From Undibacterium hunanense (GTDB lineage: Bacteria; Pseudomonadota; Gammaproteobacteria; Burkholderiales; Burkholderiaceae_D), in contig NZ_JACOGF010000002.1 of assembly GCF_014284335.1 (NCBI RefSeq), positions 1 through 64,000 on the forward strand: DNA of 64,000 bases, given 5' to 3'. This document shows, in pieces, positions 22,397 to 31,680 of the stretch. The stretch's first letter is position 1. The number at the start of each line of letters is the position of its first letter. The notes beneath the pieces are model-generated. The model was not told the origin of the DNA, did no database searches, and was given only the letters and a program-made list of their open reading frames with translations. A program made the position numbers and the translations under genes.

Positions 22397-22491
22397 GGAA
22401 ATCTCTTTGTGATTGAACGAGTTACGAATTCTACGGTAGTTCTGGCAAATTGTTTTTTCGATTTTTTTTGCCTGTGGATACCCTTAAATTG

Positions 22492-22582
22492 AATAACTTT
22501 ATATATACATGGTAGTGATTGTTAACGCAGTCACCTGTCTGTGGATAAGTCGGTAAACATCCACAGAATCAAAAGTTTAAGC
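22492..22582 (+). repeat. Origin-module copy 1
   Basis: About 90 bp sharing a block order with copy 2 at 23114-23203: AATAACTT, TATATATACAT, GTAGT-type bases, GTTAACG, TGTGGATAAGT, then TCCACAGAATCAAAAG. Divergence is in the spacers while boxes are kept. Confidence 0.7.
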
Positions 22583-23113
22583 AAATGATAAGGCGGTGAT
22601 AAACCTCTGTATATCCACAGGACAAAATCTGAACAGTAAACCTTGCAGTGAATAATTTCTGGCTTACACACAATGCATACAGTGGATATCAGATGAGTTA
22701 TCCACAAAGTTTTTTTATATTTTGTGGTTTTTCCGCTGAATTTTTTGCAAAAAGACCTGAAATACGGCGTCGCTGAGGAAAATTCTTGATGTAAGCCTGT
22801 TCAATTCCTGGTCAGTGATGCTTTTTGAATAGCAAAAATCGCTTGCATGTCTTCAACGCCAGTCGCTTGTGACCATTTGCTGTGCTGGCAGCTGTTTTTT
22901 TTAGTTTCATCCAGAAGTAAAAACAAGTTTTGGAAAAATTTATCTGAAAATTTGTAAAAGCCTATTTTTTAAGCAGAGGTTTATTCAAATGATGAACAGC
23001 TTTTTTGACTGACTGTTTTGGTTTGTGGAAGAGCTGATTTTTTTATTCAAAGCCCAGGTGTGTTTTTGAAAAAATAAAAAAATATCTCCGGGATGCTTAA
23101 GGCCGTTCAATTA

Positions 23114-23203
23114 AATAACTTAGTTTATATATACATAGTAGTAGTAGTTAACGTCGCGATTTTTTGTGGATAAGTCTGTATTTGTCCACAGAATCAAAAG
23201 CTT
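23114..23203 (+). repeat. Origin-module copy 2
   Basis: Second copy of the module described at 22492-22582, offset by about 622 bp in the same orientation, with the GTA triplet expanded (GTAGTAGTAGTTAACG) and a TTGTCCACA in place of ACATCCACA. Confidence 0.7.
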
Positions 23204-23401
23204 AGTCCATGTATAGATGTTCTTATAAGTCTTGTATGAAAGAAGAACAGTTTTGGGATAAAAATCGGCAGTGGATAAGTAAGGGTGGTTTTGCACAGTT
23301 CATCCTGGGGATATACATAGACTTGTCCACAGGGTTTTTATTGTGTGCTTATTATGTTTACAGTTTTTTTGCGTACTTCAGACTTGTGATCTTGCTACAA
23401 A

Positions 23402-26356: not shown

Positions 26357-26890
26357 TCAGGTCGTCTTTTCAGCCAGTTTTTTTAAGTTAGCCAGACCAG
26401 CTTCAAAGTCGGGACCCACCATTTTATCCATAAATGGGGCAAATAGCTTCATCATCAGGTTTCCCTCGCTGCTGCCATGCATATCCCAGGTGACTTTGGT
26501 ACCGCCAGCCTGTACTTCCAGCAGCATTGCACCGACTGAGGGTTTGCCCATGCCTTCGAAGTGCAGTTCGTATTCCAGTTTCTGGTCAGTCTGTACCTGG
26601 CTGAACTTCATGCCGCCGTTGCCCTGGCTTTTGCTTTTCCAGTCCCAGGCAGCGCCGGGGCCGGATTCTGGTCCGGAATACTGCATTTCCATGGAAGGAT
26701 CACGCTGATTCCATACGGACCAGTTTTTCCAGGCCTTGGGTGCAGCGATGAGCGGGAAAATTTTGGCGGGCGGGGCCTGGATGACGATACTGCGGCTGAT
26801 GTTATATTCATTCGGCAGGGAATAGGCAATACCGAGCAGGACGACGACCAGGGTGACAAGAATACCGGCTATCCATTTGATGATTTTCAT
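26357..26890 (-). CDS. SRPBCC/polyketide cyclase-like protein with N-terminal anchor
   Basis: 177 aa. An N-terminal hydrophobic segment (IAGILVTLVVVLLGIAYSLP) is followed by a START-like SRPBCC domain: ISRSIVIQAPPAKIFPLIAAPKAWKNWSVWNQRDPSM ... GTKVTWDMHGSSEG ... MDKMVGPDFEAGLANLKKL. Such proteins bind hydrophobic ligands or act as cyclases; the membrane anchor places it in the periplasm. Ligand unknown. Its upstream region holds the phased DnaA-box-like array. Confidence 0.85.
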   Translation of the reverse strand: MKIIKWIAGILVTLVVVLLGIAYSLPNEYNISRSIVIQAPPAKIFPLIAAPKAWKNWSVWNQRDPSMEMQYSGPESGPGAAWDWKSKSQGNGGMKFSQVQTDQKLEYELHFEGMGKPSVGAMLLEVQAGGTKVTWDMHGSSEGNLMMKLFAPFMDKMVGPDFEAGLANLKKLAEKTT

Positions 26891-26963
26891 TTTCTGCTCC
26901 TGTAAGGGGAAGGTAAAAATGCCACGACCGTTATAGCCGTAAATCTAAAGCAAATTCAGTCGC

Positions 26964-27074
26964 TTATCTATCACTTATCTATCATTTATCCACAGCTTAT
27001 CCACATGTTATTCATGGCTTATTGGTAGCTTACTCACAGCTTGTCCACACACATTATCAAGCTATTTATCAACG
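26964..27074 (+). repeat. Phased array of DnaA-box-like 9-mers, 11-bp period
   Basis: Ten 9-mers related to TTATCCACA start at 26964, 26975, 26986, 26997, 27008, 27019, 27030 and 27041 (exact 11-bp steps), then 27054 and 27066. The third and fourth are perfect TTATCCACA; the eighth is TTGTCCACA, the seventh TTACTCACA, the first two TTATCTATC. Two-base linkers are mostly GC. All face the same way, and the last overlaps the 3' end of glpK. An 11-bp pitch puts the boxes on nearly one face of the helix, so a cooperative DnaA filament or titration site is plausible. Confidence 0.7.
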
Positions 27075-28538
27075 AATGCGGCCTACGGCAATTTCCCATT
27101 CGCGCATGAGGCTGGCTGCCTGGTCCCTGCTCATGGTGGGGAAAAACTGTCTGTCCATTTGCCATAATGCAGCACATTCATCGGTACTTTGATAAATCCC
27201 TGTTCCCAGCCCGGCCAGGTAGGCCGCGCCAAGTGCTGTAGTTTCTGTCACTTTGGGGCGTATCACGGGTATGCCCAGCAAATTCGCCTGGAATTGCAGC
27301 AAGAGATTATTGGCTGCTGCACCACCGTCCACCCTTAGTTCACTGATGGGGGAAACGGCATCCCTGGTCATGGCTTGCAACAGGGCGGTGCTTTGGAAGG
27401 CAATCGATTCCAGGGCGGCGCGGGCAATGTGTCCAACGGTACTGCCGCGGCTAAGGCCCAGTATGGCACCCTTGGCGGACGGCACCCAGTAAGGTGCACC
27501 CAGACCGGTGAAAGAGGGTACAAAGACCACGCCGCCAGAATCCGGCACGCTGGCTGCCAGTTCTTCGACATCGGTGGAATGCTGTATGGCTTTTAAACCA
27601 TCGCGCAACCACTGCACGACGGCACCGCCAATAAATACACTGCCCTCAAGGGCATACTGGGGTCGCGTGTCTGTCTGGCAGGCAGCGGTGCTGATCAGGC
27701 CATTTTGCGATACCGGGCAATTATCACCTGTATGCATGAGCATGAAACAGCCGGTGCCATAGGTATTTTTTGCCATGCCGGGGGTAAAACAGGCCTGGCC
27801 GAACAAGGCTGCCTGCTGGTCACCTGCGATACCGGCGATGGGAATACTGTCGCCCAGCAGGCTGGTTTCACCAAAGCGGTGGCTGGACGGCAGGACTTGT
27901 GGCAATAGCGATGGCGGGATATCAAACCAGTCCAGCAGATCCTGATCCCATTCACCGCGATGGATGTTGTACAGCATGGTGCGTGAAGCATTGCTGACAT
28001 CGGTGACATGCAGTTTGCCGGCACTGAGTTGCCAGGCCAGCCAGCTATCAACGGTACCAAATGCCAGTTCACCGGCATCGGCACGGCGTCTGGCACCGGG
28101 AATCTGGTCCAGCAGCCATTTCAGCTTGGTGGCAGAAAAATAGGGGTCAAGTATCAGGCCGGTCCTGGCCTGTATCTGTTCAGCTTTGCCTTGTTGCCGC
28201 AGTTGTTCACAATAGGATTCGGTGCGGCGGTCTTGCCAGACAATGGCATTGGCCAGGGGTTGGCCGGTTTTTCTGTCCCACAGTATGGTGGTTTCGCGCT
28301 GGTTGGTAATACCCAGGGCAGCAATGTTACTGGCTTGCAGGCCGGCATTTTGCAATACCTGTCTACAGGTGGCGAACTGGGTTTGCCAGATTTCGGTGGC
28401 ATCATGCTCTACCCATCCTGGTTGCGGAAAAATCTGGCGGAATTCTTGCTGAGCGGATGCGATCAACTGGCCGCGTTCATCGAAAATGATACTGCGTGAA
28501 CTGGAAGTGCCCTGGTCTAAAGCGAGCAGATAAGTCAT
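27069..28538 (-). CDS. glpK: Glycerol kinase
   Basis: 489 aa, normal length. FGGY-kinase features: N-terminal ATP loop [83 protein letters not shown] and [10 protein letters not shown]. It phosphorylates glycerol to sn-glycerol 3-phosphate. No glpF, glpD or glpR is adjacent, so it is monocistronic here. No terminator hairpin follows it; the DnaA-box-like array occupies that place. Confidence 0.97.
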
Positions 28539-30795: not shown

Positions 30796-31680
30796 TTATT
30801 TCCAGATGGCATTCAATAAGGCAAAGCTGGCGGCAATCATGGCTTCGTGCTGACGTTTTTCCTGACAGATGAAACTGAGTTCAGTCGGTACGCTGACTGC
30901 ATCAGCAATAACCAGGCCATGAGCATGAGCTTCCCGGATGGCGATGGAATCGCGTATCAGGCTGAGGCCGACGCCGGATTTGACCAGATCGAGCATGGAT
31001 GGCTCCTGATCCACCAGGGCGACGATATTGGCGCTGACGCCGTGTTCATTGAAAATCTTGCTCAGCAGGCGGTGATGGGCCGATTCTGGCGGCGTCCATA
31101 GCCAGGGCAGGCGGGCAAGACTGGGCCAGCCCTGGCCTGCTACCCGGTTTTTCCAGCCGCTGGGGGCTACCACGCGGTAATTGAAAGTGGTCAGCGCGAG
31201 GCTGTGGCAGGGAGTTTTGCCATCGTCTGGCGGTTGCCCCAGATAAAAGCCGACATCCAGCGTGCCGGCACGGATTTGTTGCAGTACCGTACCCGACATG
31301 CCTTGCTGCAACTTTGTGGATAACTGTGGATAAGTCTCAACCAGGCGCTTCAAAAATACCCCCAGGCGGGTGAATTCGGGGTCGAGTATGGTGCCTATTG
31401 CCAGCTCACCCGAAATGGTGCTGTGCAAGGCGTAGGCGGCCTGGCGAAACTCGCTCATGCCAGCCAGTACTTTCTCTGCATAAGGCAGCAGTTTTGCACC
31501 ATCATTACTGAGGCGCATGCCGCTGGCGCTGCGTGTGAATAACTGTAGTTGCAGGTAATCCTGCAAGGCCTTGATCTGCAGGCTGACCGCCGGTTGTGTC
31601 ACATGCAATTGTTCCGCCGCCCGGGTCAGGTTGCCTTCTTTGGCCACAGCAACAAAAGCACGGAGTTGTGTCAAGTCCAT
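30796..31680 (-). CDS. LysR-type transcriptional regulator
   Basis: 294 aa. N-terminal HTH MDLTQLRAFVAVAKEGNLTRAAEQLHVTQPAVSLQIKAL, and a periplasmic-binding-like effector domain (GTLDVGFYLGQPPDD). It is divergent from mmsA with 113 bp between the starts; regulation of mmsA is likely by LysR convention but not shown. Confidence 0.93.
   Translation of the reverse strand: MDLTQLRAFVAVAKEGNLTRAAEQLHVTQPAVSLQIKALQDYLQLQLFTRSASGMRLSNDGAKLLPYAEKVLAGMSEFRQAAYALHSTISGELAIGTILDPEFTRLGVFLKRLVETYPQLSTKLQQGMSGTVLQQIRAGTLDVGFYLGQPPDDGKTPCHSLALTTFNYRVVAPSGWKNRVAGQGWPSLARLPWLWTPPESAHHRLLSKIFNEHGVSANIVALVDQEPSMLDLVKSGVGLSLIRDSIAIREAHAHGLVIADAVSVPTELSFICQEKRQHEAMIAASFALLNAIWK

Follow-up and report, generated by a model that had tools for sequence, protein, structure and literature searches.

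A row of regularly spaced DnaA-box-like 9-mers lies near the candidate replication origin (oriC) of Undibacterium hunanense, within the 64,000-nucleotide stretch of DNA analysed here (the window). This raises the question of what such a row does outside the origin: whether it withholds DnaA from oriC, changes the nucleotide state of DnaA, controls a neighbouring gene, serves as a second origin or is a tandem repeat without function.

Anatomy and setting of the array

As described in the original prediction, eight 9-mers follow one another on the plus strand at exact 11-bp steps, with every start at its predicted position, and two more are present behind them, at steps of 13 and 12 bp and not 11 (Table 1). 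All ten units share one orientation and two of the ten match the DnaA box TTATCCACA perfectly; the distance to the oriC candidate (22.47–23.34 kb) is 3.6 kb, in agreement with the predicted value. The mismatches to TTATCCACA number 3, 3, 0, 0, 3, 4, 2 and 1 for the eight 11-bp-spaced units in order, and 3 and 2 for the units at 27054 and 27066. The periodicity is real and far beyond chance. The match sum of the eight units at the 11-bp step is 56 out of 72, against a top sum of 37 for the remaining periods between 9 and 15 on both strands, and Markov controls reached a maximum of 39, both in 100 first-order sequences of the whole window and in 2000 of the intergenic stretch. Scored as a ten-unit chain of canonical boxes, the array reaches 58.1 bits. 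Boxes with no more than one mismatch number 38 across the entire window, where 13.9 ± 3.8 are expected.

Table 1. Array units, adjoining genes and the two oriC copies in the window
Feature	Position	Strand	Remarks
oriC copy 1	22473..22720	+	DnaA boxes; IHF consensus at 22567
oriC copy 2	23115..23340	+	TAGTAGTAGTAG at 23136–23147; box pair 23165/23182; IHF consensus at 23192
SRPBCC/polyketide-cyclase-like gene	26357..26890	-	Downstream neighbour of the array; glpK–SRPBCC order kept in relatives
Core array	26964..27049	+	Eight head-to-tail DnaA-box-like 9-mers, 11-bp steps (2-bp spacers); position check, period scan, TRF rows
Perfect DnaA box TTATCCACA	26986..26994	+	Candidate anchor; box scan
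Perfect DnaA box TTATCCACA	26997..27005	+	Candidate anchor; box scan
One-mismatch box TTGTCCACA	27041..27049	+	Box scan; variant also in oriC at 23182 and 23323
Two extra box-like units	27054..27074	+	Steps of 13 and 12 bp; last unit overlaps the glpK stop codon
glpK (FGGY kinase)	27069..28538	-	PF00370, PF02782; upstream neighbour of the array on the minus strand

The name glpK, given in the original prediction, fits the domain content of the kinase gene, and the overlap of the last unit with its stop codon bears out the proposed position of the array after this gene. On the other side, the array starts 74 bp past the start codon of the SRPBCC-like gene. Judging from its sequence, the array is probably noncoding, since the step length of 11 bp cannot be divided by three and none of the open reading frames of at least 80 amino acids runs across it; two plus-strand frames are open through the array and are absent from the list of open reading frames.

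Conservation downstream of glpK in relatives had been named beforehand as a check, and it is absent. Relatives retrieved with the SRPBCC neighbour protein are mostly Undibacterium species, and the SRPBCC gene comes next after glpK in 20 of 21 relative loci, although L032, one of the 20, has only a stretch of it; in the remaining locus, L014, the contig ends too early. The two genes are less than 100 bp apart in 16 of the 20 loci. The chain scan found an array in the spacer of none of the 20 loci, and of none of 22 further loci, whose genomes are partly the same. The best spacer chain in a relative has two boxes and 17.0 bits, as compared with ten boxes and 58.1 bits in the window, and the spacer of some relatives contains a single box-like word. 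The array is thus, as far as these genomes indicate, lineage-specific, and this copy would have arisen in, or been retained only by, the U. hunanense lineage.

Box arrays around oriC in Undibacterium and beyond

A 1-kb oriC piece (22400–23400) matches 41 of the 43 genus genomes and does so in at least two places in 35 of them, which reflects the make-up of oriC from two diverged copies. These copies (22473–22620 and 23115–23200) are identical at 78 of 103 positions (76%), and an IHF consensus as well as a pair of boxes is present in each. The box pair of either copy is inverted, with 17 bp from start to start, a spacing that occurs 59 times in 18 oriC regions, and only copy 2 contains TAGTAGTAGTAG, which we take to resemble a DnaA-trio. 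GC skew shows a weak sign change at oriC, too weak to serve as proof of its position. The first 73 kb of the contig at oriC hold 18 of the 69 perfect boxes of the genome, where 0.8 would be expected. Two perfect boxes 10 bp apart lie inside a LysR-type gene (31315–31333); this pair is kept in six relatives in near-identical context (the window flank being compared with that of G026), and six 10-bp chain matches represent this one pair. The dnaA gene is located 333 kb from oriC in the U. hunanense genome. The encoded DnaA carries RDHTTV near its C-terminus, presumably the DNA-binding motif, and a second, shorter PF00308 match in the genome, of 265 codons, may be Hda, a name given provisionally.

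Arrays comparable to the one in the window were sought by scanning for chains built from the canonical box alone (period 10–13 bp, with a minimum of four boxes and 26 bits). The 730 kb surrounding oriC in 41 genomes (40 plus the window) yielded 15 chains, six of them within oriC itself. The only chain in 800 kb of U. hunanense chromosome arms, at C75:3.3 kb, is itself another array, and even at 24 bits none was found in a further 440 kb, of which other genomes supplied 420 kb. These 440 kb comprise 400 kb from six other genomes, where oriC is 137 kb or more away, and 40 kb at 37–61 kb from oriC in G026 and in the U. hunanense genome (G000). Five permuted consensus sequences gave 0–1 chains in the oriC set and 0–2 in the 800 kb. 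Among the chains above 35 bits, nine of ten, from six genomes, belong to the oriC set (p 0.0009), and eight of nine if the window is left out (p 0.002). The head-to-tail arrays of Undibacterium genomes comprise 5 to 18 boxes. Among the nine strongest, 18 and 14 units flank oriC on both sides in G066, and G064 has 13 and 14 units that resemble the G066 arrays in both sequence and location; the window has 10, G015 has 8, G005 has 7 and 8, and G020 has 5. Steps inside the 15 arrays, within the 10–13 bp to which the scan was limited, are 11 bp in 72 of 139 cases, 12 bp in 54, 10 bp in 12 and 13 bp in one. A preference for 11 bp among box pairs near oriC in relatives was considered and rejected, direct pairs at 12, 18, 22 and 10 bp (18, 13, 13 and 10, respectively) being more frequent than those at 11 bp (7).

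A strict two-box pattern and a three-box pattern with one mismatch matched only 4 and 3 of the 43 genus genomes, respectively. Both were judged too strict, and a four-unit profile was therefore built from 14 stretches of ten arrays and run on the 43 whole genomes. With E-values that are rough, it matches 33 genomes at E ≤ 0.1 and 13 at E ≤ 0.001, and ten have no match even at E 0.1. After neighbours had been merged by hand, 32 loci remained at E ≤ 0.01. Nineteen are no more than 50 kb from oriC (the distance being measured for 17 and deduced from synteny for 2), a figure biased by profile training arrays that were partly found near oriC; six represent a single conserved locus some 0.7 Mb away, a distance measured in G063 and G026 and deduced from synteny in the remaining genomes; one lies at 101 kb, and six lie elsewhere or at unknown distance. 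Among the 22 loci outside the training set, 11 lie within 50 kb of oriC (9 measured). The figure to trust is obtained by counting orthologous loci once and unknown distances as outside, whereupon 6 of 13 loci lie within 50 kb of oriC, with p about 1e-6 against a 3.1% target. The U. hunanense genome itself has at least three arrays (the window, C20:71.9 kb and C75:3.3 kb). From these comparisons, the window array is probably a member of a class of oriC-linked arrays that recur in Undibacterium in differing places. Two matches look unlike this class: G022 C18, with five near-identical TTATCGACT units, and G014 C2, in which no chain of four boxes was found. The profile matches in G014 C2 (L298:3900–4000) are on a 171-kb second contig and possibly mark the origin of a second replicon.

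In an order-wide profile search (150 genomes drawn), 11 of 149 other genomes match at E ≤ 0.001, the matches in G103 and G147 having only 3–4 boxes. The array and dnaA are on the same contig at 18 kb in G076, 22 kb in G129 and 37 kb in G183. In G067, a single contig with dnaA at 424, a seven-unit array at 5,123,207 of about 5.2 Mb would also lie near dnaA if the contig is circular. In the other seven of the 11 matching genomes, dnaA and the array are on different contigs. Outside the genus, the use of dnaA as oriC marker is an assumption, dnaA not being located at oriC in Undibacterium, and some of the order-wide matches may be oriC itself. G136, from another Burkholderiales family, contains divergent arrays of perfect DnaA boxes (L302:1377–1543), possibly its oriC, and its dnaA is on a different contig.

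Conserved array loci and the slippage alternative

A locus about 39 kb from oriC holds an array of 8–11 units in matching sequence context in G026, G063, G034, G065, G018, G031 and U. hunanense (C20:71.9 kb), the seven genomes with a profile match there. It is 35–42 kb from oriC in four genomes, 101 kb in G018, and on a contig other than that of oriC in G031 and U. hunanense. The steps are mostly 12 bp and the array lies within the signal-peptide-like start of a small protein; it is coding, and protein constraint can contribute to its conservation. The array-coded protein has repeats such as LSTG and LSTY (L282:5884–6080, in G000 C20, and L283:5688–6302). Identity over all pairs is 84% for boxes, 70% for spacers and 64% for flanks, and for G026–G000, the most distant and most relevant pair, 70% for boxes and 68% for spacers. 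The best-kept box positions are 8 and 9 (97%), 2 (95%) and 7 (91%), and the least-kept 3 (70%), 5 (73%) and 6 (74%). Because position 9 falls on the wobble base of codons, the protein does not call for its conservation; positions 3–6 are not particularly well kept. Within the first 50 codons of the C20 array, Leu is encoded by TTA in 6 of 10 cases and Thr by ACA in 7 of 7; the respective counts for two genes next to it are 6 of 279 and 12 of 121. Since boxes exceed spacers in identity, wobble position 9 is kept and rare codons are imposed, the locus suggests DNA-level constraint, or at least common descent of the units.

The ABC permease–HlyD locus, at a distance of about 0.7 Mb, has an array downstream of the permease gene in six of seven genomes examined (U. 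hunanense, G063, G026, G031, G018 and G065); none was found in G034. The array is 690 kb from oriC in G063 and 701 kb in G026 (10.5 and 10.8% of the contig); the U. hunanense copy is L156:3228–3313 (G000 C75). Identity is 66% for boxes, 51% for spacers and 63% for flanks, and 57% for boxes and 59% for spacers in the pair G063–G000. Boxes thus exceed spacers over all pairs, but no conservation of boxes over flanks was found here.

The composition of the units bears on the main rival explanation for the window copy, a neutral minisatellite, in which replication slippage in a free intergenic spacer would have multiplied a DnaA box, a common motif near oriC, and the copies would now be decaying. 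In a pooled set of 141 units with at least 5/9 matches, from 15 arrays of which some are orthologous, T2, A7 and C8 are most constant and positions 5 and 6 least (T2 137, A7 127, C8 121, T4 120, T1 118, A3 110, A9 100, C6 88 and C5 82); the units were phased on TTATCCACA, which raises all nine columns alike, so that only differences among columns are meaningful. Spacer-column identity within arrays is mostly 0.2–0.5, and 0.71 in the permease array of G065. The window array shows no variation at T1 and T2, an identity of 0.8 at A3, T4 and A7, 0.53 at position 5 and 0.22–0.36 in all other columns; the poor preservation of positions 8 and 9 (0.36 and 0.31) counts against the functional reading. 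Its spacer columns are near random (0.22 and 0.29) next to the kept T1, T2, A3, T4 and A7, a pattern that may speak against slippage, although the phasing favours box columns and two adjacent unit pairs are near-identical. Box-unit arrays also recur around oriC in other species, and the boxes of the 39-kb locus are on the whole more alike than its spacers, an effect that slippage alone would not produce.

The slippage explanation draws on the absence of the array from this place in all 20 relative loci and on the near-identity of window units 1–2 and 3–4, as slippage would leave them. Furthermore, of 50 tandem arrays in 884 kb of the genome, 8 have an 11-bp unit (the C75 box array is among them) and 11 a 12-bp unit, and unrelated 11- or 12-bp repeats occur elsewhere, for instance at C32:266.4–266.8 kb. 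Other short repeats are visible by eye in the same spacer of relatives (L012 and L034). The C32 region (L145:2414–2805) has two near-perfect 11-bp minisatellites in TRF, ATACTGCGTTT with 14 copies and TACTGCGCTTA with 12.5, which share only TTAT with the DnaA box. Taken together, a neutral origin of the window copy appears rather unlikely.

Proposed DnaA binding and titration near the origin

We hold with moderate confidence that the window array is a lineage-specific member of an oriC-linked, probably DnaA-binding class, and that it is a cooperative array acting as a DnaA sink. An origin-linked, titration-like DnaA array is best supported because similar arrays recur around oriC and one locus carries signs of DNA-level constraint; for the window copy, we infer DnaA binding, cooperativity and the sink role. 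DnaA would bind the strong boxes at 26986, 26997 and 27041, and ATP-DnaA would spread head-to-tail onto the weak neighbouring boxes, in the manner of the low-affinity arrays in E. coli oriC, because the boxes face the same way and are 2 bp apart. Since the array lies 3.6 kb from oriC, a replication fork moving at the usual speed would copy it within seconds of initiation, and its copy number would double at once. The doubled array would then draw free DnaA from the new origins and help to prevent re-initiation.

The original prediction knew of no named element with this layout, but the geometry has precedents. In E. coli oriC, low-affinity sites form clusters of four, 2 bp apart, that are filled cooperatively from a strong box (PMC6070618), and two protomers of Thermotoga DnaA bind same-direction boxes best at 2 bp, head-to-tail oligomers being formed on inverted boxes as well (PMC10316083). 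The Undibacterium array is similar to the DnaA-oligomerization region of E. coli oriC in its 2-bp spacing, in having one orientation, as each half of that region does, and in the loading from strong boxes proposed for it (PMC6070618, PMC10316083). However, it lies outside oriC, has 8–10 units with the strong boxes inside the row, and is found without an unwinding element or IHF consensus. No report of such arrays was found in the literature on oriC and DnaA boxes of Undibacterium and Burkholderiales, as covered by titles and the beginnings of abstracts with few subscription papers; for Undibacterium and oriC together, the abstract beginnings yielded only ushA-like genes and no such arrays.

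The datA-like titration site of the original prediction is supported in its titration part, whereas a strict datA fails on the IHF site, no IHF consensus and no conserved place among relatives (0 of 20 loci) having been found. In E. coli datA, the essential boxes share one direction and an IHF site is essential (PMC5742627). A datA- or DARS-like array would assemble DnaA into an oligomer and thereby alter the protein's nucleotide state, and not merely sequester it. All boxes of the window array face the same way, as do the essential boxes of datA (PMC5742627), and like datA the array is noncoding; moreover, the sister array at the permease locus, present in six of seven genomes examined, lies 10.5–10.8% of the chromosome from oriC in G063 and G026. 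In contrast to datA, the window array itself is only 3.6 kb from oriC, its sister being about a tenth of the chromosome away, and it is not kept in place. The consensus for IHF is WATCAANNNNTTR. A search for this word, which would miss a diverged site, did not find it within 250 bp of 22 of the 23 arrays covered, the window array among them, whereas both oriC copies have one. Overall, we regard a datA- or DARS-like function as improbable. Local regulation, in which DnaA or another factor bound 74–184 bp upstream of the SRPBCC gene would control its transcription, fits the placement of the array upstream of this gene; however, a simple consensus scan found no sigma-70-like promoter in 26850–27150, the arrays of other species adjoin different genes or even lie within a signal-peptide coding region, and the SRPBCC orthologues scanned have no array upstream, which makes such a role very improbable. 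The second initiation element of the original prediction resembles oriC in box density and in a GC content of 35%, but is disfavoured and a most remote prospect, as there is no stretch as AT-rich as that of oriC (the lowest-GC 60-mer within 500 bp of the array has 0.30, against 0.20 in oriC), no TAGTAG repeat and no IHF consensus near the array, and a conserved oriC, to which 41 of the 43 genus genomes have a match, lies 3.6 kb away.

Titration by box arrays, the reading we prefer, has parallels in other bacteria. In Bacillus subtilis, removal of six DnaA-box clusters (DBCs) leads to early initiation, which one re-introduced cluster partly relieves (PMC5295017, PMC4585315); elsewhere, the same review denies these clusters a significant role (PMC5295017), and their known role is debated. 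Like the DBCs, the window array is a DnaA-box cluster outside and close to oriC (3.6 kb). In contrast to them, in a comparison that leaves the DBC spacing aside, the Undibacterium rows are head-to-tail, mostly with 2–3 bp spacers and up to 18 units, and array positions differ between species. In E. coli, DnaA boxes accumulate towards oriC, which has been argued to favour titration (PMC12371093); there the difference from Undibacterium is that box density is raised, and the word tandem occurs 0 times in the main text (PMC12371093).

More tentatively, we propose that Undibacterium, and perhaps other Burkholderiales, may employ distributed DnaA buffering by arrays that shift their place, with several per genome in about 50 kb around the duplicated oriC and one conserved distal array at about 0.7 Mb. 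Presence and geometry of the arrays would be selected, and exact place and sequence would not, and the arrays could dictate the codons of a signal peptide. The share of titration in the timing of initiation, beside the DnaA nucleotide-state switch, is a current question, and experimental evidence for titration was called still lacking before work published in 2025 (PMC12371093). Discrete, deletable arrays with a known geometry, of which there are at least three in the U. hunanense genome, would make titration directly testable, and the array class, with 5 to 18 units at 11- or 12-bp steps, would be a natural series for cooperative DnaA spreading outside the origin.
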